Virus record (IMG/VR): IMGVR_UViG_3300013307_000680
Coordinates: 1 to 25,425 of that record
Source: a virus
Reading direction: 5' to 3' (one strand)
Length of the DNA stretch: 25,425 nucleotides
Position 1 is the first letter of the stretch; each line of letters opens with the position of its first letter. The notes beneath the pieces are model-generated. The model worked only from the letters and a program-made list of their open reading frames with translations, made no database searches and was not told the origin of the DNA. Below are positions 1 to 16,445 of this stretch, one piece after another. A program made the position numbers and the translations under genes.

Positions 1-1608
1 ATGCCGAAACTTGCTGCCCTGTATGCGCGTATCTCCAAGGCTGATGACAACGTTCCCAAGGTTGAGAACCAGCTAGCCGACCTAGAACGGCTTGCCGCAG
101 CTCGGGGACTGACCATCGTTGACCGATACGTTGACGACGGCCTGAGCGCTGCCAAGGCTGAGAACCGGCCGGACTTTGACCGGCTGTTAGCCGATCTCGC
201 CTCCGGGAAGTTCACTGTCATCCTGGCAACCGAAGAGGCACGTCTAGCCAGGAACGAGACTGAGAAGTTCGCTCTGATGTTTACCTGTTCGCAGGCAGGA
301 GCAACCTGGGAGACCTTGCGTGACGGCCATGTAGACCCTTCTACGGCTGCCGGTGCACTCATGGCGGGTATCCGTGGCTCTATCGACGCTTTCGAGTCCA
401 GACGGAGAGCTGAGCGTCAACGACAGGCCAACATTCACAAGCGGGAGAAGGGTCTTCCCGGTGCAGGCAAGAGACCCTTCGGTTTCAAGGAAGACAAGAT
501 CACTCCGGAACCTGATGAGGCTGACCTCATCAAGCGTGGAACTGAAATGGCTCTCTCCGGTGCCAGGAAGTTTGAAGTCCTAGAGCTGTTCAGGGAGTCA
601 GGCATCAAGACGGCACGCGGTGGGGAATGGCACGCTGCCAGCATGGTTGCCCTGCTCAGACGGTGGCGTAACGCGGGCTACGTCGAACACGACGATGAGC
701 CATACGGACCGGCTGTTTGGCCTCCGATCATTGCTGATGACCGGGAAAGGGCTTTGCAGATGGTCAGGGATGTCCGAACGATCTACAGCACTCCGAAGAT
801 GCCTGGACAGTGGCAGAAGCCGACTCATCTAGCTAGCGGCATTGCCAAGTGTGGCTTCTGCGATCGGCAGATGGTTTTCTCCGGTGGCACAAGGGTTCCT
901 GGTTACCGTTGCATAGCCCTGGTGACCGATGGCAAGGGCAACGGAGCTGGACACGCATCTATCCGAGCTTCAATCCTTGATGCTGTGATCGTTAAGGAGT
1001 TGTTGAAGCTCTATCTCTGGCAGCCTGAACAGCTCACAGACGACACAGGATCAGAAGCCGAGCTAGGACAGCTCCATAGCTCTCTCGGTGAGGTACAGAA
1101 GAAGCTAGAGCGCTTGCTTGACCTCTACACCGAAGGTGACCTAAGCCGAGCTGAGTACAACAAACGTGTTGCTCCCTTGAAAATCCAAGAGGAGGACATT
1201 CAGCAGGCCATAGCCGACTTTGCCAAGTCCAACGCTCATACGGCCATGCTGATTGAAGCTCAACAGACACTCATGCAGAATTGGGCAGAACGGGGGATCA
1301 CGGTTACCCCTGATCCACGCGGTACCAATGAACGTAGCCGGATGATTAGGCCACCAACCAAGCCCGGTGAAACGGTGAGCGCCAAAGATGCTCTAGGGAT
1401 CATCAGGGAATACCGGGAAGTTGGTGACCAGCTAAGGGAAGCTTTCGAAGCACTGTCTCTAACCGATCAAAGACGGCTTGTATCTGCTAGCTTGAACATC
1501 GTTGTTCAACCGGGCGGAAGAGGAGCAAAGAGAGTTCTTATCAGCTCTCGATTGAACTCAACGGAGGGGATTGAGGATGGCTCAGAAGATTCAAGTGACG
1601 ATGACTGA
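1..1608 (+). CDS. int: Large serine recombinase (phage integrase)
   Basis: This is a 535-residue large serine integrase for site-specific integration and possibly excision of the phage. The N-terminal resolvase domain starts with YARIS, placing the catalytic serine at residue 12 beside Arg10. The later EEARLAR segment corresponds to the family's conserved DRLxR region. A recombinase domain follows (about 150-260), then a zinc-ribbon-like region with CGFC and YRC, a long charged coiled-coil stretch (about 350-420) and a C-terminal tail. The fourth zinc ligand, normally Cys in a GCG motif, reads GAGH here, so the ribbon is incomplete or uses His. The first base of the window is the ATG, so the ribosome binding site, promoter and any adjacent attachment site lie outside. 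The 3' end overlaps the Lsr2 gene. Family assignment is secure; the target site is unknown. Confidence 0.95.
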   Translation: MPKLAALYARISKADDNVPKVENQLADLERLAAARGLTIVDRYVDDGLSAAKAENRPDFDRLLADLASGKFTVILATEEARLARNETEKFALMFTCSQAGATWETLRDGHVDPSTAAGALMAGIRGSIDAFESRRRAERQRQANIHKREKGLPGAGKRPFGFKEDKITPEPDEADLIKRGTEMALSGARKFEVLELFRESGIKTARGGEWHAASMVALLRRWRNAGYVEHDDEPYGPAVWPPIIADDRERALQMVRDVRTIYSTPKMPGQWQKPTHLASGIAKCGFCDRQMVFSGGTRVPGYRCIALVTDGKGNGAGHASIRASILDAVIVKELLKLYLWQPEQLTDDTGSEAELGQLHSSLGEVQKKLERLLDLYTEGDLSRAEYNKRVAPLKIQEEDIQQAIADFAKSNAHTAMLIEAQQTLMQNWAERGITVTPDPRGTNERSRMIRPPTKPGETVSAKDALGIIREYREVGDQLREAFEALSLTDQRRLVSASLNIVVQPGGRGAKRVLISSRLNSTEGIEDGSEDSSDDD

Positions 1609-1915
1609 CGACTTGGACGGTACTGCCAAGGATGTCAGGACGTTCAGTTTCGCTCTGGACGGGAAGGACTATGAGATAGACCTGAGCAAGCGCAACGGTG
1701 ACAAGTTCACCAGGAAGCTTGAACCATTCGTTGCGGCAGCTCGGAAGGTCAACCGGAACAGGGGACAGCAGAAGCCAGCTTCAAACGGTGCCGTCAAGCG
1801 GTCCAAGGATGAAATGAACCGGATACGCGAATGGGCCAGGCAGAAGGGTCACAAGGTCTCTGAGCGTGGCCGTATCGCTCAACCGATCCTAGATGCCTAT
1901 GACGCTTCACACTGA
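1577..1915 (+). CDS. lsr2: Lsr2-like nucleoid-associated protein
   Basis: This 112-residue protein matches the Lsr2 family, the actinobacterial H-NS analogue that bridges and silences AT-rich DNA. An N-terminal dimerisation half (MAQKIQVTMTDDLDG, then FALDGKDYEIDLS) is joined by a basic linker to a C-terminal DNA-binding half with the AT-hook-like RGR at residues 97-99. Length is normal for the family. I chose the ATG at 1577 because GGAGGGG lies just upstream and family members start with MAQ; an in-frame TTG six bases earlier is less likely. The gene overlaps the integrase by 32 bases, implying coupled expression. A phage copy could silence phage promoters in lysogeny, counter host Lsr2, or affect integration. 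The family call rests on motifs; the role is inferred. Confidence 0.92.
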   Translation: MAQKIQVTMTDDLDGTAKDVRTFSFALDGKDYEIDLSKRNGDKFTRKLEPFVAAARKVNRNRGQQKPASNGAVKRSKDEMNRIREWARQKGHKVSERGRIAQPILDAYDASH

Positions 1916-2732: not shown

Positions 2733-2760
2733 ATCAATTTTGTGAATTGATCCAATTCAC
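2733..2760. promoter_or_regulatory. Overlapping palindromic operators at the sigma promoter
   Basis: Two perfect inverted repeats overlap. ATCAATT (2733-2739) pairs with AATTGAT (2745-2751) across five bases. GTGAATTG (2742-2749) pairs with CAATTCAC (2753-2760) across three bases. They cover the -35 hexamer and fill the spacer of the promoter at 2740-2767, so a bound dimer would block RNA polymerase. Further half-sites occur at 2662-2669 (CAATTCAC) and 2713-2720 (ATCAATTC). This fits a repressor-controlled lytic switch, but the repressor is not identified. Confidence 0.6.
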
Positions 2761-2767
2761 GTATAAT
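2740..2767 (+). promoter_or_regulatory. SigA-type promoter of the ECF sigma gene
   Basis: The -35 is TTGTGA (2740-2745) and the -10 is a perfect TATAAT (2762-2767), separated by 16 bp. It lies about 70 bp before the sigma start codon in AT-rich DNA. It is a host housekeeping-type promoter, unlike the GGAAT/GTT promoters proposed for the phage sigma factor, so the sigma gene can be transcribed before its own product exists. Confidence 0.7.
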
Positions 2768-2791: not shown

Positions 2792-2835
2792 TGTCTTACC
2801 GAAGCACTAGGCGTTACGCCAGAATAGGTAAGACA
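2792..2835 (+). promoter_or_regulatory. Structured 5' leader of sigma mRNA
   Basis: A perfect 9-bp stem joins TGTCTTACC (2792-2800) to GGTAAGACA (2827-2835). It encloses a second small hairpin, GGCG-TTA-CGCC (2810-2820). The 3' arm ends four bases before the sigma ATG and contains the only purine-rich stretch (AGGTAAG) that could serve as ribosome binding site. Folding would therefore hide the translation start. The structure is seen in the sequence; a regulatory function is inferred. Confidence 0.5.
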
Positions 2836-2839
2836 CTGC

Positions 2840-3370
2840 ATGGACACACAAGGGGTATTCGCTACTGAAATAGTACCTCACGAAAAAGCCCTCTTAGCAC
2901 AGGCATTAAGACTCACCAAAGACAAGTACAAAGCCGAAGACCTCTGCCAAGAAACGCTTCTGAAAGCCTGGATAGGCATTGACTCCTACACTCCCGGCAC
3001 CAATGCGCTGAACTGGCTTCATCGGATCATGCAGAACCGGCATGTTGATATGTACCGGTCACAACAAACGAAGCCGGATGAGGTTTATTCCTTTGAGGAC
3101 TTCAATGAAGCCCTGGACGCGGTTGAGTCCGCTGAGACCTCTCACTTTGATGACCATATCAATCCGATCCTCTTGCAAGCCCTGGACCAGCTCCCTGAGA
3201 ACTTCCGTGAAGCGTTCTGGCTTCACAAGGTGGAAGACCTAAGCGTCAATCAGGTTTCTGAGCTGTTGGGCATCCCTCGAAACACTGTCCTGACCCGTAT
3301 TCACCGGGCCAAGTTGAAGCTCCAAGAATTGTTGATCGGATATGAAAGTGAGGTTGCAGAAGATGTCTAG
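2840..3370 (+). CDS. Phage ECF sigma factor, SigR/SigH-like
   Basis: This 176-residue sigma-70 family protein has only regions 2 and 4, as in ECF sigma factors. Region 2 spans about 12-75, with the core-binding segment EDLCQETLLKAW (33-44) and the -10 recognition segment GTNALNWLHRIMQNRHVDMY (53-72). The GTN-x3-WL-x-RI-x2-N-x5-YR arrangement and following KP are typical of actinobacterial SigR/SigH. Region 4 spans about 112-165, with a helix-turn-helix (LSVNQVSELLGIPRNTVLTRIHRAK). There is no extra C-terminal domain. Candidate promoters with the SigR/SigH pattern recur across the window in front of lysis and structural operons, so I infer it is the late-gene sigma factor. It is transcribed from a host-type promoter under palindromic operators and overlaps the next gene by eight bases. 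Confidence 0.9.
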   Translation: MDTQGVFATEIVPHEKALLAQALRLTKDKYKAEDLCQETLLKAWIGIDSYTPGTNALNWLHRIMQNRHVDMYRSQQTKPDEVYSFEDFNEALDAVESAETSHFDDHINPILLQALDQLPENFREAFWLHKVEDLSVNQVSELLGIPRNTVLTRIHRAKLKLQELLIGYESEVAEDV

Positions 3371-3545
3371 GCACATCAAAGGTAGATGTTCTGATTGCGG
3401 CCACACCTTTTATTTCCATAATTGGGGTATCTGTGGTGTTTACGATTGCCGGGTCTGGCTTAAGTACGCGGATAGCCGATGTCCAGCTATGAGTTTTCAG
3501 GATGAGGCCACATCGGAAGACCTTGGAATCCTGCTAGAGAAGTGA
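3363..3545 (+). CDS. Small Cys-rich zinc-ribbon-like protein, candidate sigma partner
   Basis: This 60-residue protein starts MSRHIKGRCSDCGHTFYFHN and carries a CxxC pair followed by CGVYDC, a further Cys and several His/Trp residues. That suggests one small zinc-binding fold. The ATG at 3363 overlaps the sigma stop by eight bases, so the two genes are translationally coupled. Zinc anti-sigma factors that partner SigR/SigH (RsrA/RshA) use H-x3-C-x2-C. Here the spacing is H-x4-C-x2-C and the helical anti-sigma domain is not evident. It could be an anti-sigma or co-regulator, or simply a zinc-ribbon protein. Function is therefore open. Confidence 0.75.
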   Translation: MSRHIKGRCSDCGHTFYFHNWGICGVYDCRVWLKYADSRCPAMSFQDEATSEDLGILLEK

Positions 3546-3551: not shown

Positions 3552-3595
3552 GGAACATGAAGCAAGCAATTGAAAATAAGATCGAAGGTCACCCA

Positions 3596-3826
3596 ATGGC
3601 GTCCGCAGGATTGGAAAAGAATCGAGTCAATCTCCTGTTGGATGAGCTGGCACGACTCCATACCGAACTACGTCTTGCCCGTATTCGCATTGAGTTCCTT
3701 GAGAATCAGTATGAACTAAAGGCCGACAGTTCTAGCTATGAGACCTTGGACGCGATGATATTAGGGCTAGGAACTGGGGATGCTACACATTCTAATAGCG
3801 GCCGGGGGATCGGGAACATTCCTTGA
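3596..3826 (+). CDS. Small coiled-coil protein, unknown function
   Basis: From the ATG at 3596 this encodes 76 residues beginning MASAGLEKNRVNLLLDELAR. A predicted long charged helix (about 5-45) is followed by a polar tail. I chose this start because GAAGG lies eight bases upstream and the putative P1 promoter would begin its RNA close to 3557. Longer starts at ATG 3557 or GTG 3542, the latter overlapping the previous stop by four bases, remain possible on read-through mRNA from the sigma gene. No family is recognised. The next membrane protein gene overlaps its 3' end by 47 bases, so it belongs to the same operon. Confidence 0.65.
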   Translation: MASAGLEKNRVNLLLDELARLHTELRLARIRIEFLENQYELKADSSSYETLDAMILGLGTGDATHSNSGRGIGNIP

Positions 3827-4112
3827 TAATCTTGGAGGCATTCTCTCTGGCGTGTCTTCATTGTTGGCCGTATTCGGTGCAGCAATTGGCTTCTTATTAA
3901 GGTATCTTAGAAATAGAAAACGTGAACGAGCACGTATTGAAACTGCCGCTCGTGTCTCCTCAGAAGAGACAAGAAAGACTCTGGAAGCTCGGTTAGAGAA
4001 GGCTCATTCCGAACAGCTCGCCAGCAAAGACAAAGAGATAGCCGATTTGAAGGAACAGAACAAGATGTTGCTGGATAGGCTTATCGGGGACGGAAAATTA
4101 CGCGATGACTAG
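3780..4112 (+). CDS. Single-TM coiled-coil membrane protein, possible holin
   Basis: This 110-residue protein has a hydrophobic, Gly-rich N-terminal segment (about 22-41, GVSSLLAVFGAAIGFLL), then a strongly basic stop-transfer stretch (RYLRNRKRER), then a long charged coiled coil (about 52-105). AGGA lies seven bases before the ATG. It overlaps the preceding gene by 47 bases and the following gene by eight. Small membrane proteins with charged tails next to an endolysin are commonly holins or their regulators, and the leftward endolysin lies 1 kb downstream. That role is inferred from topology and context; no holin family signature is certain. Confidence 0.75.
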   Translation: MLHILIAAGGSGTFLDNLGGILSGVSSLLAVFGAAIGFLLRYLRNRKRERARIETAARVSSEETRKTLEARLEKAHSEQLASKDKEIADLKEQNKMLLDRLIGDGKLRDD

Positions 4113-4500
4113 AGAAGAAGAGCTAGAGATAGATCAGGTTGTCTCTAAAGCGGTGGAAACGGCTTATAAAGAGTATCCGCCATTATTGCTGACACCTTTG
4201 GTGAAGATTCTTATTGCGCTGTTCGCGGTCCTACTCTTGGTGACATCCGGTGATTCCACTTACAACACGGTTCATCTGGCGAGTATCCAGAAATGCCAAG
4301 CCACCAACACAGCAAATCAGCGAACAGTTGCACAGCAGGATAGAGCGGTTGTAGATCAGCTAGAGAATACGAAGTCTCAGCTCATAGCTAAGCGTGTGCC
4401 GGTTACTGATCCTCAGTGGAAAGCGGCAATCGACAAATACAACCGAGACCGGGCAGCGAACGACAAACAACGGCTTGCAATAAGCAAGAAATGCAGTTGA
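4105..4500 (+). CDS. Single-TM membrane protein, unknown function
   Basis: This 131-residue protein has a short acidic N-terminus, one strong transmembrane helix (about 28-47, LLTPLVKILIALFAVLLLV) and an 80-residue polar domain predicted outside the membrane, rich in Gln, Asn and Lys, with two Cys (one at the extreme C-terminus) that could form a disulphide. It overlaps the previous membrane gene by eight bases (ATGACTAG), indicating translational coupling. Together with its neighbours it forms a membrane-protein block facing the endolysin. It could be a second holin-type or envelope-disrupting protein; no family is recognised. Confidence 0.75.
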   Translation: MTREEELEIDQVVSKAVETAYKEYPPLLLTPLVKILIALFAVLLLVTSGDSTYNTVHLASIQKCQATNTANQRTVAQQDRAVVDQLENTKSQLIAKRVPVTDPQWKAAIDKYNRDRAANDKQRLAISKKCS

Positions 4501-4506
4501 TAGCTA

Positions 4507-4968
4507 GTGAGGTTATTCAAGACCGCAGATGACAGATATGTTGGCCTGGTTGCTGCCGTAGCTTCAATCATCATGGCCGTGATCCTCATTGTTGCTCTAT
4601 CGACTCCTAGCGACTCGGGTAGGACGCCATACCGAGCACCTAGCAAGGTGACTGTCTCAGCCTCTCCCACCAGGGCTAGCAAGTCTCCTGGTCCTATGCG
4701 TGACAGCTCGCCTGTAAGCCGTCCGTCCAGCTCCCCGGCACTCACGGCCGGACAACCGTTCCCGGTGTCTCAGAATGGCTCTCAGGCCGCTTCACAGGCA
4801 GTTTCGAGCCAAGCTCCTAGAGCTGTTTCACCGTCGATGCTTCCCTTTCCGGTTCCATCACTTCCGATCCCATTGCCGAGCTACACGGCACCATCGTTGT
4901 CACTTGACGTTTTCCCACTGCCGACTATCGGATTGCGGTTGCCTCTGCCATTGCCGAGCAAGTCATAA
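4507..4968 (+). CDS. Membrane-anchored Ser/Pro-rich protein
   Basis: This 153-residue protein begins at a GTG six bases after the previous stop. It has one N-terminal transmembrane helix (about 13-31) followed by about 120 residues dominated by Ser, Pro, Ala and Leu, ending in Pro-Leu repeats (such as PLPLPS). The low-complexity segment would lie outside the membrane and could span the thick cell wall. No enzymatic motif is present. Context in the lysis block suggests an envelope role, for example linking membrane damage to wall attack, or superinfection control; neither is shown by sequence. The start is uncertain because no ATG fits. Confidence 0.65.
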   Translation: MRLFKTADDRYVGLVAAVASIIMAVILIVALSTPSDSGRTPYRAPSKVTVSASPTRASKSPGPMRDSSPVSRPSSSPALTAGQPFPVSQNGSQAASQAVSSQAPRAVSPSMLPFPVPSLPIPLPSYTAPSLSLDVFPLPTIGLRLPLPLPSKS

Positions 4969-5036: not shown

Positions 5037-5918
5037 TTAGTTGGTCACACCGGCAATCTTGGACTTCATAATGCCGTACCGAGCTGGACTCATGGTGATT
5101 ACCTCACTGGACTTGCATAGCGGCATACCTAGAAGAACCTTGATGTCATCCGCAGTGATCGGATTGTCTCCGTAGTTCAACGGCTGCCATAGGCCAGGAG
5201 CAACTAGCGCGATGGCGTTACTTTGGTTGTTCTGAACGATTATGTACATTCCTTCTTCATCTCCGGTTGGAATATCTGGCTGTGGCTTAGGTGGCTTGGT
5301 TGGTTCTGGCTGAGGGTCACTAGGAACCGGCAGACCTAATAGGGCAGCAAATTGGTTAGCCGTCATTTCGGCACGGTTGATATCCGATGGTCCGAACGGT
5401 GGCGTATTCGCGTTGTCCGCGTACTGGTGGCCGATCATTCCGGCAATACCAGTTGGCACACCCGAATAGTTGGCAACGATTACCTGAGCGTCACCACGGT
5501 TAGGCCAAAGGTTGGCTAGGTCGGATCGGTTGCCGTATCCGATGACACGCTTACGGTTGCCACCAAGCCAGGAAATGACAGCTTCACGAGCTGCATTGAT
5601 CCCTGCACTCTGATTACCGGTGATCCGGCCGGACCAGTTCTCAACATCAATCATCACGGCCATATGTGGATCAGGAGTGCCGACCATTGATTTGAGAGTG
5701 TCAACGGTGGCTTGCCAGTTCGGTTCCCAGACGAAATAGACGATGAAGCCTGTCAGCTTGCCCTTTTGAACGGCTGCCTTGGACCAAGCGAGGTTGGCAG
5801 CACAGTTCCTATCCCTGTACGTGCCGTCATTGGCTCGAAAGGCTAGGAATGGATACGGGTATCTGTCGTCAACAACACTCTGGAAGTGCGAGACATCAGA
5901 CCAAAGTAATTCTGGCAT
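5037..5918 (-). CDS. Endolysin, GH25-like muramidase
   Basis: This leftward gene encodes a 293-residue lysin. The N-terminal catalytic domain (about 1-200) has GH25 hallmarks: WSDVSHFQ at the start, FRANDGTYRD, the acid pair in IDVENW (Asp91 and Glu93) and a closing QYAD ... DINR segment. It would cleave peptidoglycan glycan strands. A Pro-rich linker (about 200-223) leads to a 70-residue C-terminal domain (starting MYIIVQNN) of a type seen in actinophage lysins and presumably wall-binding. I chose the ATG at 5918 because GH25 domains start close to the DVS motif. A sigma-type promoter also lies just before it, inside any longer version starting at GTG 5966. No signal peptide is seen, so export needs a holin. 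Confidence 0.9.
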   Translation of the reverse strand: MPELLWSDVSHFQSVVDDRYPYPFLAFRANDGTYRDRNCAANLAWSKAAVQKGKLTGFIVYFVWEPNWQATVDTLKSMVGTPDPHMAVMIDVENWSGRITGNQSAGINAAREAVISWLGGNRKRVIGYGNRSDLANLWPNRGDAQVIVANYSGVPTGIAGMIGHQYADNANTPPFGPSDINRAEMTANQFAALLGLPVPSDPQPEPTKPPKPQPDIPTGDEEGMYIIVQNNQSNAIALVAPGLWQPLNYGDNPITADDIKVLLGMPLCKSSEVITMSPARYGIMKSKIAGVTN

Positions 5919-5927
5919 GACCGTTTC

Positions 5928-5954
5928 AACGGGTAATACATCACACCAGATTGC
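5928..5954 (-). promoter_or_regulatory. Putative phage-sigma promoter P2 (endolysin)
   Basis: On the minus strand GCAATCT (5954-5948) is followed after 16 bases by CGTTGAAA, giving 19 bp between GCAAT and GTT (5930-5928). It differs from the other copies by one base in the -35 (GCAAT for GGAAT). GTT ends nine bases before the endolysin ATG, so the mRNA would have almost no leader. Confidence 0.55.
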
Positions 5955-5962
5955 AGAAATTG

Positions 5963-6044
5963 GCACTACCTAAGCACTGTCTCAGCACTATCCAGCGCTA
6001 CCTAATAAGTGGACGGGGAGCACTCAGAACACTGAGCCAGCACC
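5963..6044. repeat. Helically phased GCACT-like repeats
   Basis: GCACT occurs at 5963, 5974 and 5985, with GCGCT at 5995, GCACT at 6020, ACACT at 6029 and GCACC at 6040. Spacing is about 10-11 bases, one turn of the helix, with one position missing near 6006. The array lies in the non-coding gap between the leftward endolysin and the rightward small-gene promoter P3, so it may be a multi-copy protein binding site. The function is unknown. Confidence 0.35.
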
Positions 6045-6078: not shown

Positions 6079-6182
6079 ATCAATTCAGGAATCAAGGCCA
6101 TTTAAGGAATCACTAGGTGAATCACAACCGTTGGAATGAGTGAAGAGAAAGAAGTTAGATGTGTCCACTACATCAATTCAGG
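6079..6182 (+). repeat. ATCAATTCAGG direct repeat flanking promoter P3
   Basis: An exact 11-base repeat lies at 6079-6089 and 6172-6182, either side of the promoter at 6106-6132. Its first eight bases equal the half-site at 2713-2720 in the sigma control region, suggesting a shared DNA-binding protein. The second copy is inside the first small gene, so chance is possible. Confidence 0.3.
6106..6132 (+). promoter_or_regulatory. Putative phage-sigma promoter P3 (small-gene block)
   Basis: GGAATC starts at 6106 and CGTTGGAA contains GTT at 6130-6132, with 19 bp between GGAAT and GTT. It is 28 bases before the GTG of the first small gene. It matches the motif found at P1, P4, P5 and P6. Confidence 0.65.
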
Positions 6183-6319
6183 CATGGAACCACGTAGAAG
6201 CTACACGCGATGAATACGAATGGTGCCATAGCGAAGAAGCACGGTTGAAGTACCTCCAAGCACTAAGAGATTTTGTAGCTATTAAGGACGAAGATGAAGC
6301 AAGTACGGACGCTATTTAA
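6161..6319 (+). CDS. Small acidic protein, unknown function
   Basis: This is a 52-residue protein starting at GTG (MSTTSIQAWNHVEATRDEYE), rich in Glu, Asp and Ala and predicted helical (SEEARLKYLQALRDF). AAAGAAG about six bases upstream is the ribosome binding site. It is the first gene after promoter P3 and overlaps the following gene by 26 bases, a compact arrangement that supports coding. No family recognised. Confidence 0.65.
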   Translation: MSTTSIQAWNHVEATRDEYEWCHSEEARLKYLQALRDFVAIKDEDEASTDAI

Positions 6320-6473
6320 GACGCCATTGGAGACCGTTGGACAGCTCAGGGAAGAGCTTGATGGTATGCCCGGTCTAACCAATGATTGCCAGCTACGCAT
6401 TGAGGCAACGCTAGGCGGAAAGATCAAAGCAATAAGGATCAGCGATGGTCAAGACGCCAGCAACCAGCGATAA
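6294..6473 (+). CDS. Small protein, unknown function
   Basis: This 59-residue protein, MKQVRTLFKTPLETVGQLRE..., has one helix followed by a beta-like segment (QLRIEATLGGKIKAIRIS). AAGGA lies five bases before the ATG. It overlaps both neighbours (26 and 29 bases), as is typical for a translationally coupled phage early or accessory block. No family recognised. Confidence 0.7.
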   Translation: MKQVRTLFKTPLETVGQLREELDGMPGLTNDCQLRIEATLGGKIKAIRISDGQDASNQR

Positions 6474-6585
6474 CAGCCACTCAGACCCGGCAAAGAGCCA
6501 AGCGAAATGGTCAGTCGATTTCTGTATCAGTCCTGACCACTGCACGCACCAAGTAAGAGAAGCAAACCCGGAAGGCAGCAAGTGA
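6445..6585 (+). CDS. Small protein, unknown function
   Basis: This 46-residue polar protein starts MVKTPATSDNSHSDPAKSQA, has two Cys and ends with an N-P-E-G-S-K tail. AAGGA sits six bases before the ATG. It overlaps the previous gene by 29 bases and the next by four (GTGA). No fold or family can be named. The good ribosome binding site and tight overlaps are the main support. Confidence 0.6.
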   Translation: MVKTPATSDNSHSDPAKSQAKWSVDFCISPDHCTHQVREANPEGSK

Positions 6586-6782
6586 CCAACCCAGCTCAGG
6601 AAGTCGATATCAACGCTCTCAACACTGAGGCTGACTCGCTCGAATACTCAGCCGATGTCAGGACTCAGGTAGTCCAGGCCGGTAGAGCGCTGGTAGCGGC
6701 AGAACAAGCCCTAGAGGCAGCTCAGACCGAATACAGCAAGGCCAAGACCCAACTTGATTGGGCCATCAGCCAAGGCCAGTAA
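6582..6782 (+). CDS. Small coiled-coil protein
   Basis: This 66-residue protein is almost wholly helical and rich in Ala, Glu and Gln (AALAALE-like heptads, e.g. RALVAAEQALEAAQTEYSKA), so a coiled coil is likely. The GTG start overlaps the previous stop by four bases and has GGAAGG six bases upstream. The fold suggests an oligomeric adaptor, but its function is unknown. Confidence 0.7.
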   Translation: MTNPAQEVDINALNTEADSLEYSADVRTQVVQAGRALVAAEQALEAAQTEYSKAKTQLDWAISQGQ

Positions 6783-6827
6783 CAAGGCCGCTAAACCCCA
6801 CCAGAAACCCGGCAAGAAAGTAATCCC

Positions 6828-7019
6828 ATGTTAGTCCTATTCGTGATGTTCATGTTGAAGGTAATTGCTTGGATGTTCCCATCCTGCACACTCCTATTCA
6901 CTGGATGTTATGAGCTGGACAGGGATGAACCGAAGAACTTTCACAACGTACCTGTTACTGATCTAGGTGAAAGTCCTCTCTCGGCAGAAGAACTAGAACT
7001 ATGGAGTACGAAGAATTGA
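6828..7019 (+). CDS. Small membrane protein
   Basis: This 63-residue protein has a hydrophobic N-terminal helix (about 1-25, MLVLFVMFMLKVIAWMFPSC) and a polar, acidic C-terminal half. Two Cys flank the end of the membrane segment. GAAAG lies eight bases before the ATG. It overlaps the next gene by 19 bases. No family is recognised; it may insert in the cytoplasmic membrane. Confidence 0.65.
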   Translation: MLVLFVMFMLKVIAWMFPSCTLLFTGCYELDRDEPKNFHNVPVTDLGESPLSAEELELWSTKN

Positions 7020-7150
7020 AGACAGGCACATCCTCAAACCAATGGGATGCAGAAGGTAATTACGTCGAATATTGCTGTGACGATTGCGAGAGATTCAGGA
7101 TCGGCTATTACTCGACACCAACCCACCACCAAACCACGGAAAGAAAGTAA
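7001..7150 (+). CDS. Small Cys-containing protein
   Basis: This is a 49-residue acidic protein, MEYEELKTGTSSNQWDAEGN..., with a CC-x2-C cluster and two adjacent His near the C-terminus (THHQ), so a single metal site is possible. It starts inside the previous gene and ends three bases before the next ATG. GAAG lies ten bases upstream. Function unknown. Confidence 0.6.
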   Translation: MEYEELKTGTSSNQWDAEGNYVEYCCDDCERFRIGYYSTPTHHQTTERK

Positions 7151-7153
7151 TTG

Positions 7154-7495
7154 ATGAGAGACCAAGCCGAGACTCTTCTAAGGGAAGCCGAAGAAGTAGC
7201 TAACCAACAACTGCATGTTGCAACGACAAAAGAAGGGCTAACAGTACCGCTCGTGAAGCTGGAAACGGAGCACGTAGCAACTGAGAAGATTGAACTAGAC
7301 AGTCATGGCCTAGAGAAGCCACCAGCCGCTAGAGAAGTAATCTCCTCATTCACTCTGGCATTAGTAGCCAGGAACATTGTTCCGAGAGACCTAAGCAAGC
7401 TGGAACTCCTGAATGAATTCTATGAGTGGCTGGTCAGTGACGCTGGATTCTCAATCATCAACTTCACTGATCTACCAGAATTGACACTCGTCTAA
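7154..7495 (+). CDS. Hypothetical phage protein
   Basis: This 113-residue protein starts MRDQAETLLREAEEVANQQL. It has an acidic helical N-terminal half and a C-terminal half with a helical segment (VISSFTLALVARNIVPRDLS) and hydrophobic end. The ATG at 7154 is preferred over the TTG three bases earlier because GAAAG lies at a good distance. It is the largest gene in the small-gene block. No family recognised. Confidence 0.75.
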   Translation: MRDQAETLLREAEEVANQQLHVATTKEGLTVPLVKLETEHVATEKIELDSHGLEKPPAAREVISSFTLALVARNIVPRDLSKLELLNEFYEWLVSDAGFSIINFTDLPELTLV

Positions 7496-7515
7496 ACCCC
7501 GACAAAGAACAACCA

Positions 7516-7698
7516 ATGAAGATATCCCTCAGTCTCTCGGTAGAGATACACAGGGACAAGAAACCGGTAGAGAAGTCCAAGGAAGAAGTCCCAGACGTAT
7601 TGAGCAATCACAATGGCTCATTCTCCGATGCTGGATACGTACAGGAAACAACCTTCGGATTCTCCAATTCCCCGGCAAAGAACAAATCCCAAAGTTAG
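7516..7698 (+). CDS. Small protein, unknown function
   Basis: This 60-residue protein has a short beta-like N-terminus (MKISLSLSVEIH), then a Lys/Glu-rich stretch (KKPVEKSKEE) and a polar Asn/Ser-rich tail. The ribosome binding site is weak (AAAGAA). It is in line with its neighbours, with short gaps on both sides, which is the main support. Confidence 0.55.
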   Translation: MKISLSLSVEIHRDKKPVEKSKEEVPDVLSNHNGSFSDAGYVQETTFGFSNSPAKNKSQS

Positions 7699-7712
7699 AG
7701 AGAAGAACATCT

Positions 7713-7922
7713 ATGCAACATCCCCCATTGAACATCAGTGAGTTGAAGACTGAGGATGGAACAAACCTCCGGTTAATGACAGTGGCAGAACTACAGGAGA
7801 AGCTAGAAGGACAAGACCCGAATGCATACGTGTATCCGTACACATGCAACGGTTGGTTAATCACACCTTCATTCAGTTCTGAGCCAGTGGACTCTGTAGA
7901 TGGACCTTATTCACTGTCCTAA
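7713..7922 (+). CDS. Small protein, unknown function
   Basis: This 69-residue protein (MQHPPLNISELKTEDGTNLR...) contains the segment LMTVAELQEKLEGQDPNAYV, resembling the small phage domains in which VxELxxxLxxxDPxAxV precedes a short beta hairpin. No enzymatic motif is present. AGAGAAG is eight bases upstream of the ATG. It is the last gene of the block, before a 236-base gap. Confidence 0.65.
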   Translation: MQHPPLNISELKTEDGTNLRLMTVAELQEKLEGQDPNAYVYPYTCNGWLITPSFSSEPVDSVDGPYSLS

Positions 7923-8158
7923 TTCCTTGCTGAATACCTAGCCAGCCCGACCCCTTGCGAGTGAGTTTCCAGCTCGGCAGTAAGGCAGGGGAGAAGCACA
8001 CCGCACCGATAATGTCAACATGCACCGCTAACGATGATTATGTAAACCTGGGCGGCATAGGCAGGCAATCCGGACACAGGCATAAGCCAACGAATATGTC
8101 AACCGAGCACATCGTTATAAACACCCGATCCTGAGAAAGTAAGAGTTACCCAACCGCA
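7923..8158. other. Non-coding gap before terminase, possible packaging site
   Basis: This gap holds no well-supported gene. A 40-codon ORF (8012-8134) has no ribosome binding site. The octamer ATGTCAAC occurs at 8012 and 8096, and there is a G-rich stretch GGGCGGCATAGGCAGGCA near 8050. Its place directly before the terminase small subunit is where a cos or pac site often lies, but I see no diagnostic signature. Confidence 0.3.
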
Positions 8159-8665
8159 ATGAAGAACCGAACCAAGGCACAGACCGAGAGTGAAGCTCTG
8201 GAAGCTCTGAGGTTGCACAACACCGGCATGACGGAACGGCAGATTGCCGAAGCCATGACGGACAAGGGAATGCCCATCAGCCAAGCCACAGTGCACAGAC
8301 GGATTGAGCTTGCCCTTTCTTTGTATGTGGTTCCGCAACTGGACGAAGCGAAGAAGCAAGCGCTCACCAGATACGAGACATTGCTTCAACACTTGTCCGC
8401 TGGTGTCAGCTCGGGTGACGTGCCAGCAATCAAGGCAGCAACGGCATTGCAAGCCCGCATAGATGCGATCACAGGTATTGACAAGCCGAAGGACAACGGT
8501 TCTGAAAAACCAAGGTCGGTACCGGCAGTTCTGGGTTTGATAGCTGGGGCCACTGCATCCCGTACTAATGCGAATCAAATTGAGAATCGGGTTCCTTCGC
8601 TTCCGTTCATGCCACAGGTGAAAGACGTTGAAGATGCGGAACTTGTAGAGGTAATCCCTTCCTAG
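8159..8665 (+). CDS. terS: Terminase small subunit
   Basis: This 168-residue protein has an N-terminal helix-turn-helix (about 20-52, GMTERQIAEAM and SQATVHRRIE) and a helical oligomerisation stretch (LDEAKKQALTRYETLLQHLS) followed by an Ala-rich helix, a common terminase small-subunit layout. It would bind phage DNA at the packaging start and hand it to the large subunit encoded 116 bases downstream. Identification rests on the HTH and position; the C-terminal third is unremarkable. The ribosome binding site is weak. The following 116-base gap holds only a short dyad (8676-8699). Confidence 0.75.
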   Translation: MKNRTKAQTESEALEALRLHNTGMTERQIAEAMTDKGMPISQATVHRRIELALSLYVVPQLDEAKKQALTRYETLLQHLSAGVSSGDVPAIKAATALQARIDAITGIDKPKDNGSEKPRSVPAVLGLIAGATASRTNANQIENRVPSLPFMPQVKDVEDAELVEVIPS

Positions 8666-8781
8666 CTCTATTGATATGAGGACGTTTCTAAGCCCTCATT
8701 TCTCCTCTCCGGTACATCCACCCTCTATCGCTTGGTTAGTCGCTCTGTGTGGCTCTCAGGTGGCAAGAATGGCAAGTTTGA

Positions 8782-10320
8782 ATGACAGACACAATCCCTC
8801 AATACGAACTCATCCCTGAGTCTTTCGATCTGAATGCTTATCTCGGGTACCTGGGTTCATTTGACCTCACTTCGGTTGAGGATCGAATGTCTGTCTCCTA
8901 TGCCGATCCTCTGGCGTTCGCTCTGATCTATCTCTCTACCCATTTGCAGGATGAGACCAGGGGTAATCACATTTCCTTTTCCCCGGTTCATATCGAATGG
9001 GTGAACCGAGCTAAGTCATGGATTGACGGTAAGCCAAGACGTGACGCTTACATTGCTCCCCGCGCAATGGGTAAATCGACTTGGTGGTTCCTGATCCTTC
9101 CTATGTGGGCAGCCGCATTCGGCCATGTTAAGTACGCTGCTGCATTCGCTGACACTGCACAACAGGCACAGACTCACCTACAGACCTTCCGGCAGGAGCT
9201 GGACCAGAACGAACAGTTGCGTGAAGACTTCCCTGACCTTGTGAATCCGTTGAAGCGAAACGGTAGGGCAGTAGCGGACAACGAATGGAAGTACAAAGCC
9301 AACTCAGGGTTCATATTCGTTGGCAAGGGTGCGGACTCATCCTCTCTTGGTTTGAAGGACGGTAACCGAAGACCGGACCTCCTGATTCTGGACGACATCG
9401 AACCACCAGGAGACCAGTATTCAAAGGGTTTGAAGGAGAAGCGACTAGAGGCTATTCGTGACGCCATTCTCTACCTGAATACCTCAGCTCGTGTTGTGTT
9501 CTCAGGAACCGTCACAATGACGGATTCCATCATTCACGACTTGGTGAAGTCGGTAACCGATGAACCTGAACGATGGATTGCGGAAATGAAACCTCCGATC
9601 CATGTTCATCATCACTTGCCGATCATCGAACATGAGGACGGTTCCGAGTCCTCTATCTGGCCTGATGGCCCTGACAAGTTCAGCTTGGACTACATGCAGT
9701 CCATTCGGGCTAATGCCGACTTCGCAAAGAACTATCTGAACTCACCTATGGGTTCCGATGGTGACTATTGGGCACCGGGTGATTTCAAGTACGGGGAAGT
9801 TCCTGGTGTTGGACCAAGATTGTTGTCCATTGACCCTGCCGTCACGTCAAAGGCATCTTCGGACTACACCGGTATTGCCGTCATTGGTTGGGCTAAGGAA
9901 GCCAAGAGAGCCGTTGTAGATGAATGCTGGCAAGTGAAGTTGCCTCCTGACAAGTTGGCAGCTCGCATAATCCAGATTTGCGATATGTACCCGGTTGCCA
10001 AGGTGCTTGTAGAGACCAACCAGGGTGGGGACGTATGGAAGAAGATTCTTGAAGATGTCCCTGTTCCGGTTGTGACAGTTCATCAGTCCGACCGTAAAGA
10101 GGTTCGGGCAGCTCGGGTCTACACCTTGTACAACAAAGGCTTGGTTTACCACTCGAAACGGCTTCCGAAGGTTGAAGAACAGATGACTTCATTCCCGAAG
10201 GCACCGAATGACGACATGGTAGACGCGGTATGTAGCGGAATTGCCTATCTGGTCAATGGAATCAAGGCAAAGAACCGCTCCAATCATCGGCAACCTATGG
10301 GTTCCCACTCGTATTTGTAG
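8782..10320 (+). CDS. terL: Terminase large subunit
   Basis: This 512-residue packaging motor has an ATPase and a nuclease domain. The Walker A-like motif is APRAMGKST (92-100), Walker B is LLILDDIE (200-207) and the coupling motif is SGTVT (about 241). The RNase H-like nuclease follows, with Asp351 in LLSIDPAV, Glu411 in VLVETN and Asp478/479 in NDDMVDAV as metal ligands. Length is normal. It cuts concatemeric DNA and pumps it into the prohead. The terminal base of its stop codon is the first base of promoter P4, so the next operon has its own start of transcription. Confidence 0.95.
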   Translation: MTDTIPQYELIPESFDLNAYLGYLGSFDLTSVEDRMSVSYADPLAFALIYLSTHLQDETRGNHISFSPVHIEWVNRAKSWIDGKPRRDAYIAPRAMGKSTWWFLILPMWAAAFGHVKYAAAFADTAQQAQTHLQTFRQELDQNEQLREDFPDLVNPLKRNGRAVADNEWKYKANSGFIFVGKGADSSSLGLKDGNRRPDLLILDDIEPPGDQYSKGLKEKRLEAIRDAILYLNTSARVVFSGTVTMTDSIIHDLVKSVTDEPERWIAEMKPPIHVHHHLPIIEHEDGSESSIWPDGPDKFSLDYMQSIRANADFAKNYLNSPMGSDGDYWAPGDFKYGEVPGVGPRLLSIDPAVTSKASSDYTGIAVIGWAKEAKRAVVDECWQVKLPPDKLAARIIQICDMYPVAKVLVETNQGGDVWKKILEDVPVPVVTVHQSDRKEVRAARVYTLYNKGLVYHSKRLPKVEEQMTSFPKAPNDDMVDAVCSGIAYLVNGIKAKNRSNHRQPMGSHSYL

Positions 10321-10346
10321 GAATCGGGGAACTTTAATACCCCGTT
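10320..10346 (+). promoter_or_regulatory. Putative phage-sigma promoter P4 (portal block)
   Basis: GGAATCG starts at 10320 and CGTTGAAA holds GTT at 10344-10346, with 19 bp between GGAAT and GTT. A CGGGG / CCCCG dyad (10325-10344) fills the spacer. It is 44 bases before the GTG of the membrane protein gene, which has AAGGA upstream. Confidence 0.65.
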
Positions 10347-10390
10347 GAAATGGGCAACGACTATTTCTATGCCCAAATGAAGGATATTTC

Positions 10391-13882: not shown

Positions 13883-13909
13883 GGAATCGCATTTACCCGC
13901 CTATTCGTT
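13883..13909 (+). promoter_or_regulatory. Putative phage-sigma promoter P5 (capsid), nested in a terminator
   Basis: GGGAATCG places GGAAT at 13883-13887, and CGTTGGAA holds GTT at 13907-13909, with 19 bp between. The spacer contains the left arm of the terminator hairpin at 13895-13930. A transcript starting near 13916 would lack that arm and would not be stopped. It is about 150 bases before the capsid ATG. Confidence 0.65.
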
Positions 13910-13930
13910 GGAAGCAACAGATAGGCGGGT
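13895..13930 (+). terminator. Terminator after scaffold gene
   Basis: ACCCGCCTAT (13895-13904) pairs perfectly with ATAGGCGGGT (13921-13930), followed by TTTGCATT. The loop has an inner GTTG-gaag-CAAC hairpin. It would stop or reduce read-through from the portal-scaffold operon, while promoter P5 inside it restarts capsid transcription. Confidence 0.85.
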
Positions 13931-13946
13931 TTTGCATTCGTTATCA

Positions 13947-16376: not shown

Positions 16377-16403
16377 GGAATCGCTATTTCTTCCTGACCC
16401 GTT
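16377..16403 (+). promoter_or_regulatory. Putative phage-sigma promoter P6 (neck/tail block)
   Basis: GGAATCG starts at 16377 and CGTTGAAA holds GTT at 16401-16403, with 19 bp between GGAAT and GTT. It sits three bases after the stopper stop codon and 73 bases before the gp10-like ATG. Sequence GTTGAAATGAATA after the spacer is also the left arm of a long inverted repeat. Confidence 0.65.
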
Positions 16404-16445
16404 GAAATGAATAGCTCGGGACAACCAGCTTTATTCAGTTTCAAC
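16401..16445 (+). repeat. Long inverted repeat at promoter P6
   Basis: GTTGAAATGAATA (16401-16413) pairs with TATTCAGTTTCAAC (16432-16445) with one bulge; AGCT on both sides of the loop can extend it. The left arm is the -10 element and start region of P6. There is no T-tail, so it is more likely a control element or operator than a terminator. Confidence 0.45.

Follow-up and report, generated by a model that had tools for sequence, protein, structure and literature searches.

A small cysteine-rich gene overlapping a SigR-like sigma gene in an actinobacteriophage record, and a predicted SigR-type late regulon

In the IMG/VR virus record IMGVR_UViG_3300013307_000680, analyzed over its complete length of 25,425 bases (the window), the gene for an extracytoplasmic function (ECF) sigma factor is overlapped by a gene for a 60-residue protein with five cysteines, hereafter the Cys gene and the Cys protein. 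The strongest new fact concerns the sigma factor, for which a late regulon of the SigR type is predicted. For the Cys protein we tentatively propose that both genes form an early operon in which it is a dedicated modulator of the sigma factor or its holoenzyme, most plausibly an anti-sigma brake; in this explanation as a whole we place somewhat less than even confidence. We read the Cys protein as a modulator because it is made together with the sigma factor, because its gene ends at the first predicted sigma-dependent promoter and because it is probably a small zinc protein. What the DNA shows directly is the overlap, the order of the genes, the class of the sigma factor and the set of promoter motifs.

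The sigma gene and the overlapping Cys gene

The sigma open reading frame (ORF; coordinates of all features are compiled in Table 1) comprises 176 codons and terminates with TAG at 3368-3370. The Cys ORF starts with the ATG at 3363 and stops with TGA at 3543-3545, so that both share 8 nucleotides (ATGTCTAG), which include this ATG and the sigma stop codon. A first-pass annotation, made from the letters alone, had claimed an 8-base overlap with the sigma stop and had pointed to the SigR system; ORF coordinates and shared sequence agree with the overlap, and by the family and structure matches reported below the sigma factor is indeed SigR-like. A Shine-Dalgarno-like GAGG stretch is readable about 9 nucleotides upstream of the ATG, and translational coupling of the two genes is probable. 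The codon-usage score of the Cys ORF (-0.06) is the highest of the three forward frames, yet weak (known genes average 0.32, wrong frames -0.31), and the case for the gene therefore depends chiefly on its start geometry and on the family match. Together with the five ordered cysteines, these point to a real protein that folds. A mechanically called ORF (GTG 3542) overlaps the Cys stop codon; it is more likely that the following gene starts at ATG 3557 or 3597.

The best curated family of the sigma factor is TIGR02947 (SigH_actino), whose 98.7 bits lie under the cut-off of 251.55, and its best solved structures are those of Mycobacterium tuberculosis SigH. By these matches the protein is assessed as SigR-like and not as an orthologue. 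In SigR/SigH-class systems, the cognate anti-sigma factor is a small zinc- or cysteine-containing protein encoded next door. Among the phage records, the best tblastn match shares 35% identity and has an RsrA-like neighbour. It derives from a GenBank entry named 'Bacteriophage sp.' (MT835748.1), in which the SigR/RsrA-like pair adjoins ORFs resembling housekeeping enzymes; with these neighbours the entry resembles a fragment of an actinobacterial chromosome, and the best 'phage' match of the sigma factor is thus probably bacterial.

Upstream of the sigma gene, a sigma-A-like promoter is overlapped by a perfect palindrome, which is likely an operator and of which no second copy was found in the window, even when 3 mismatches were allowed. 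The leader stem that follows may control sigma translation; it matched no Rfam family, and its fold energy is unremarkable (z -0.95). No copy of the SigR/SigH-type motif is present upstream of the sigma gene.

SigR/SigH-type promoters and the predicted late regulon

Since SigR/SigH promoters read GGAAT-N18-19-GTT, the published SigH consensus (PMC10012870), the window was scanned for this pattern. A sharp plus-strand peak was obtained for GGAAT-N19-GTT, 19 being the only clear spacing, and all five plus-strand copies (5/5) conform exactly to GGAATC-N17-CGTTGRAA. The shorter core GGAATC-N17-CGTT occurs 5 times, as compared to 0.08 expected from shuffled sequences, and the motif including GRAA was found 7 times with up to 2 mismatches, against 0.51 expected. 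In an unbiased count of 6+4 dyads the motif ties for the commonest, whereas shuffles reach 4 at most.

Each of the five plus-strand copies opens a gene block, meaning that the promoter feature GGAAT-N18-19-GTT of SigR/SigH-type sigma factors is present in front of predicted targets in the window. We infer that these promoters are active, and the sigma regulon is predicted to cover the blocks for lysis, packaging, head and tail; six promoters, including the reverse-strand copy facing the lysin gene, are possibly also readable by host SigH. With the first late promoter starting within the Cys gene, the early operon would consist of the sigma and Cys genes only. In front of the capsid gene, a terminator-like hairpin (CCCGCCTAT/ATAGGCGGG-TTTT, 13896-13933) overlaps the -10 region of the promoter, so that one unit would end where the next one starts.

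In related phage loci, 663 kb in total, no copy of the core GGAATC-N17-CGTT was present, and no sigma factor was detected in those of their records that were searched. A late-promoter scan of IMG/VR returned single chance-like matches among the matches listed, with no sigma gene nearby.

Fold, relatives and possible role of the Cys protein

The cysteines of the Cys protein are arranged as C9-x2-C12 and C24-x4-C29 (CGVYDC) followed by C40, with H4, H14 and H19 close by; the first-pass annotation had seen the CxxC, the CGVYDC and a nearby histidine, an inventory that left out C40. Of the 120 mechanical ORFs in the window with 50 or more codons, just two show the CxxC..C..C..C pattern, the Cys ORF and one antisense ORF. 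A single family stands out as significant, the zinc beta-ribbon of serine recombinases (PF13408; 21.1 bits, under the curated cut-off of 25.3; E=4e-4), and PF04438 and PF10571 were the only further Pfam families at E<=1. When the sequence was shuffled with all cysteines fixed, 0 of 10 versions matched PF13408, and therefore the match requires residues beyond the cysteines. When IMG/VR was scanned for C-x2-C-G-x10-C-x4-C-x10-C-P, the exact cysteine spacing, most matches were chance frames; the only sensible ones were two viral serine recombinases (L044 and L094), which carry all five cysteines at identical spacing and align to the Cys protein without gaps across the cysteine core (24.6 bits in BLASTP for L044). 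From these likenesses the Cys protein is probably a free-standing zinc ribbon, and homology to recombinases is suggestive.

This kinship is what an alternative role builds on, in which a stand-alone recombinase-type ribbon acts on DNA or on the serine integrase of the phage, e.g. as a directionality or DNA-bridging accessory, and adjoins the sigma gene by position only. We regard it as unlikely: the PF13408 lead that vanishes upon shuffling of the non-cysteine residues, the five-cysteine spacing shared with the two recombinases and an integrase with a PF13408 ribbon of its own that ends 1.8 kb upstream all fit, but the PF13408 match does not reach the curated cut-off, the ribbon of the window's integrase is only 13% identical, and recombination accessories more often adjoin the integrase gene than overlap a sigma gene. 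The known family domain is part of a recombinase, whereas the Cys protein is free.

As for anti-sigma families, the SigR-like partner, the same gene order and the richness in cysteines would suit a miniature member of the zinc anti-sigma (ZAS) proteins represented by RsrA and RshA, which bind and inhibit their sigma factor until thiol oxidation frees it. Such membership is very improbable and was rejected on two features: the protein has H4-x4-C9-x2-C12 instead of H-x3-C-x2-C, and there is neither a sign of the helical sigma-binding domain nor a profile match, no anti-sigma family being hit in Pfam (E<=1) or NCBIfam (E<=10). The first-pass annotation had likewise set the protein apart from canonical RsrA/RshA. 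Small zinc anti-sigma factors of other folds exist, namely the zinc-finger protein CsfB (Gin) and Fin (PMC5890618); the Cys protein matched neither of their Pfam families (E<=1).

Relatives of the Cys protein were sought widely. No homolog was found in IMG/VR viral contigs, in INPHARED (50,697 phage records, E<=10), in GTDB contigs, among relatives of the phage's structural module, in PLSDB plasmids (matches at chance level only) or in 396 genomes across the phylum of Streptomyces, where all matches proved to be chance on inspection. Scans with the integrase, the major capsid protein and sigma alignments retrieved no sister phage with sigma and Cys genes. On present data, the pairing is unique to this record. 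The lack of relatives in any collection searched, the weak codon signal and the frequency of overlaps in phage operons would be expected of a small zinc-finger protein of unrelated role, or of a weakly functional ORF, packed here by ordinary phage overlap; the good start site, the five ordered cysteines and the family-level match speak against this, and we consider it slightly less probable than the integrase-side role.

The main rival comes from phage phiEco32, in which a late sigma factor is accompanied by a small transcription modulator, gp79 (PMC8948821). As a gp79-like host-takeover factor, the ribbon would bind host RNA polymerase or sigma-A, lower housekeeping transcription and favour the phage sigma factor. 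Production of such a factor together with the sigma factor at the early/late switch fits the arrangement seen here; no sequence relation to gp79 was found, however, and in a temperate phage leaky expression would burden the lysogen. This rival, too, is improbable in our view, although it stands first among the alternatives, followed by the role on DNA or integrase and then by the unrelated small protein.

The modulator explanation that we favour would work as follows. In a temperate actinobacteriophage, the Cys gene would come second in an early operon of regulatory genes, transcribed from the sigma-A-like host-type promoter, which is probably repressed at the palindrome, and the operon would yield the SigR-like sigma factor and, via the overlap, the zinc-ribbon protein. 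Host RNA polymerase would then be guided by the sigma factor to six or more promoters of the SigR/SigH type, from which the blocks for lysis, packaging, head and tail start. The Cys protein would most likely fold round one zinc ion, with C9, C12, C29 and C40, or C24, as ligands, and most plausibly brake leaky sigma activity as an anti-sigma factor, so that the late genes stay off in the lysogen. Precedents are the zinc-finger anti-sigma factor CsfB (PMC5890618) and the late sigma factor of phiEco32 with its small modulator (PMC8948821). For the protein, we infer zinc binding, sigma binding and the sign of its effect; sigma modulation and redox sensitivity, both put forward as possible by the first-pass annotation, are hypotheses. 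A more far-reaching version appears quite doubtful to us: the late genes would use the host's thiol-stress promoter class and be guarded by an oxidation-sensing anti-sigma factor of a new kind in the form of a free recombinase-type ribbon, and disulfide stress would lead to prophage lysis through the ribbon and through host SigH, which would act at these same promoters.

Several points weigh against an anti-sigma brake. Gene overlap is common in phages and shows coupling and nothing more. Conservation of the sigma/Cys pairing was not seen, since the collections searched hold no homolog of the Cys protein, and a similar small cysteine-rich neighbour is missing from all other phage ECF sigma genes that we inspected. 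A co-translated brake would need release, and no release route was identified. AlphaFold2 models of the single Cys protein, run alone or with three recombinase ribbons, were poor (predicted local distance difference test scores of 51 and 44). The only remote kinship is with a DNA-side recombinase domain, which for an anti-sigma role as such counts neither for nor against. Finally, the late sigma factor gp47 of phage 7-11 works without a gp79-like partner (PMC8948821).

Other window features, known systems and significance

Table 1. Positions of genes, candidate control elements and predicted promoters in the window
Feature	Position	Strand	Remarks
Large serine integrase	1..1608	+	own PF13408 zinc ribbon at residues 279-334
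Lsr2-like nucleoid protein	1571..1915	+	family profiles
Sigma-A-like promoter TTGTGA-N16-TATAAT of the sigma/Cys operon	2740..2767	+	consensus match only
Perfect 8+8 palindrome GTGAATTG-atc-CAATTCAC, candidate operator	2742-2760		overlaps sigma-A-like promoter
Perfect 9-bp leader stem TGTCTTACC/GGTAAGACA	2792..2835	+	3' arm holds likely Shine-Dalgarno sequence of sigma gene
ECF sigma factor, SigR/SigH-like, regions 2 and 4	2840..3370	+	family profiles, solved-structure relatives
60-residue five-Cys protein, probable recombinase-type zinc ribbon	3363..3545	+	8-nucleotide overlap with sigma gene, Cys spacing, PF13408 lead
Predicted SigR/SigH-type promoter GGAATC-N17-CGTTGGAA	3525..3555	+	in 3' end of Cys gene; would drive downstream ORF and holin-like/membrane genes, ~3557-4968
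Predicted promoter, motif with one mismatch	5924..5954	-	faces lysin, ends ~5 nucleotides before likely ATG (~5918)
Predicted promoter	6106..6136	+	5' of 6140-10320 block: small genes, small terminase (TerS)-like, large terminase (TerL)
Predicted promoter	10320..10350	+	between terL and 10391 ORF/portal block
Predicted promoter	13883..13913	+	5' of major capsid gene
Predicted promoter	16377..16407	+	5' of 16477 ORF and tail block

Within the plus-strand late region, the lysin gene (5037-5966) is the sole gene recognised on the reverse strand; it is equipped with a promoter copy of its own, and a segment of it shares 66-69% DNA identity with mycobacteriophage lysin A. The large terminase (8782-10320) has relatives in Streptomyces satellite-system phages (MiniFlayer 37%, Mulchroom 43%). 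Neither a gene for replication nor one for a repressor was recognised in the window; possibly the record is a fragment, or the phage is satellite-like.

With SigR-RsrA of Streptomyces and SigH-RshA of Mycobacterium and Corynebacterium, the pair shares the ECF class, the GGAAT-N18-19-GTT promoter (PMC10012870) and a small cysteine-rich gene directly downstream; it differs in that the downstream protein lacks ZAS motif and helical domain, that the regulon consists of phage late genes and that no motif copy precedes the sigma gene. CsfB and Fin, anti-sigma factors of Bacillus sporulation, are likewise very small cysteine-rich zinc proteins, and CsfB inhibits two sigma factors (PMC5890618). However, CsfB uses two CxxC pairs (C11/C14, C30/C33) in a treble clef, as compared to C-x2-C, C-x4-C and a lone cysteine here, the targets of both proteins are not ECF sigma factors, and a family match to the Cys protein is absent. 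Phages phiEco32 (gp36/gp79) and 7-11 (gp47) resemble the present case in that a phage sigma factor brings host RNA polymerase to late promoters, with gp79 as a small co-acting transcription modulator (PMC8948821); their promoters are different (GTAAtg-16-aCTA for gp47), they are enterobacterial podoviruses, and their sigma factors are not SigR-like. In the Streptomyces phage Gilgamesh, another actinobacteriophage, sigma gene gp92 is also overlapped by the next small ORF, gp91, but the latter encodes 129 residues without cysteines or family match, and the sigma factors are 25% identical. Gilgamesh gp91 (3033-3422 of the locus examined) is possibly a sigma partner of another kind.

Phage-encoded sigma factors are already known. 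We found no description of a temperate actinobacteriophage with a SigR-like sigma factor whose regulon of lysis, packaging and structural genes can be read. The promoters match the host SigR/SigH consensus and so may be read by the host factor too, which would connect the late genes of the phage with a thiol-stress circuit that is well studied. If the Cys protein does inhibit the sigma factor, it would represent a further zinc-binding anti-sigma factor outside the ZAS family, and one that is phage-borne.
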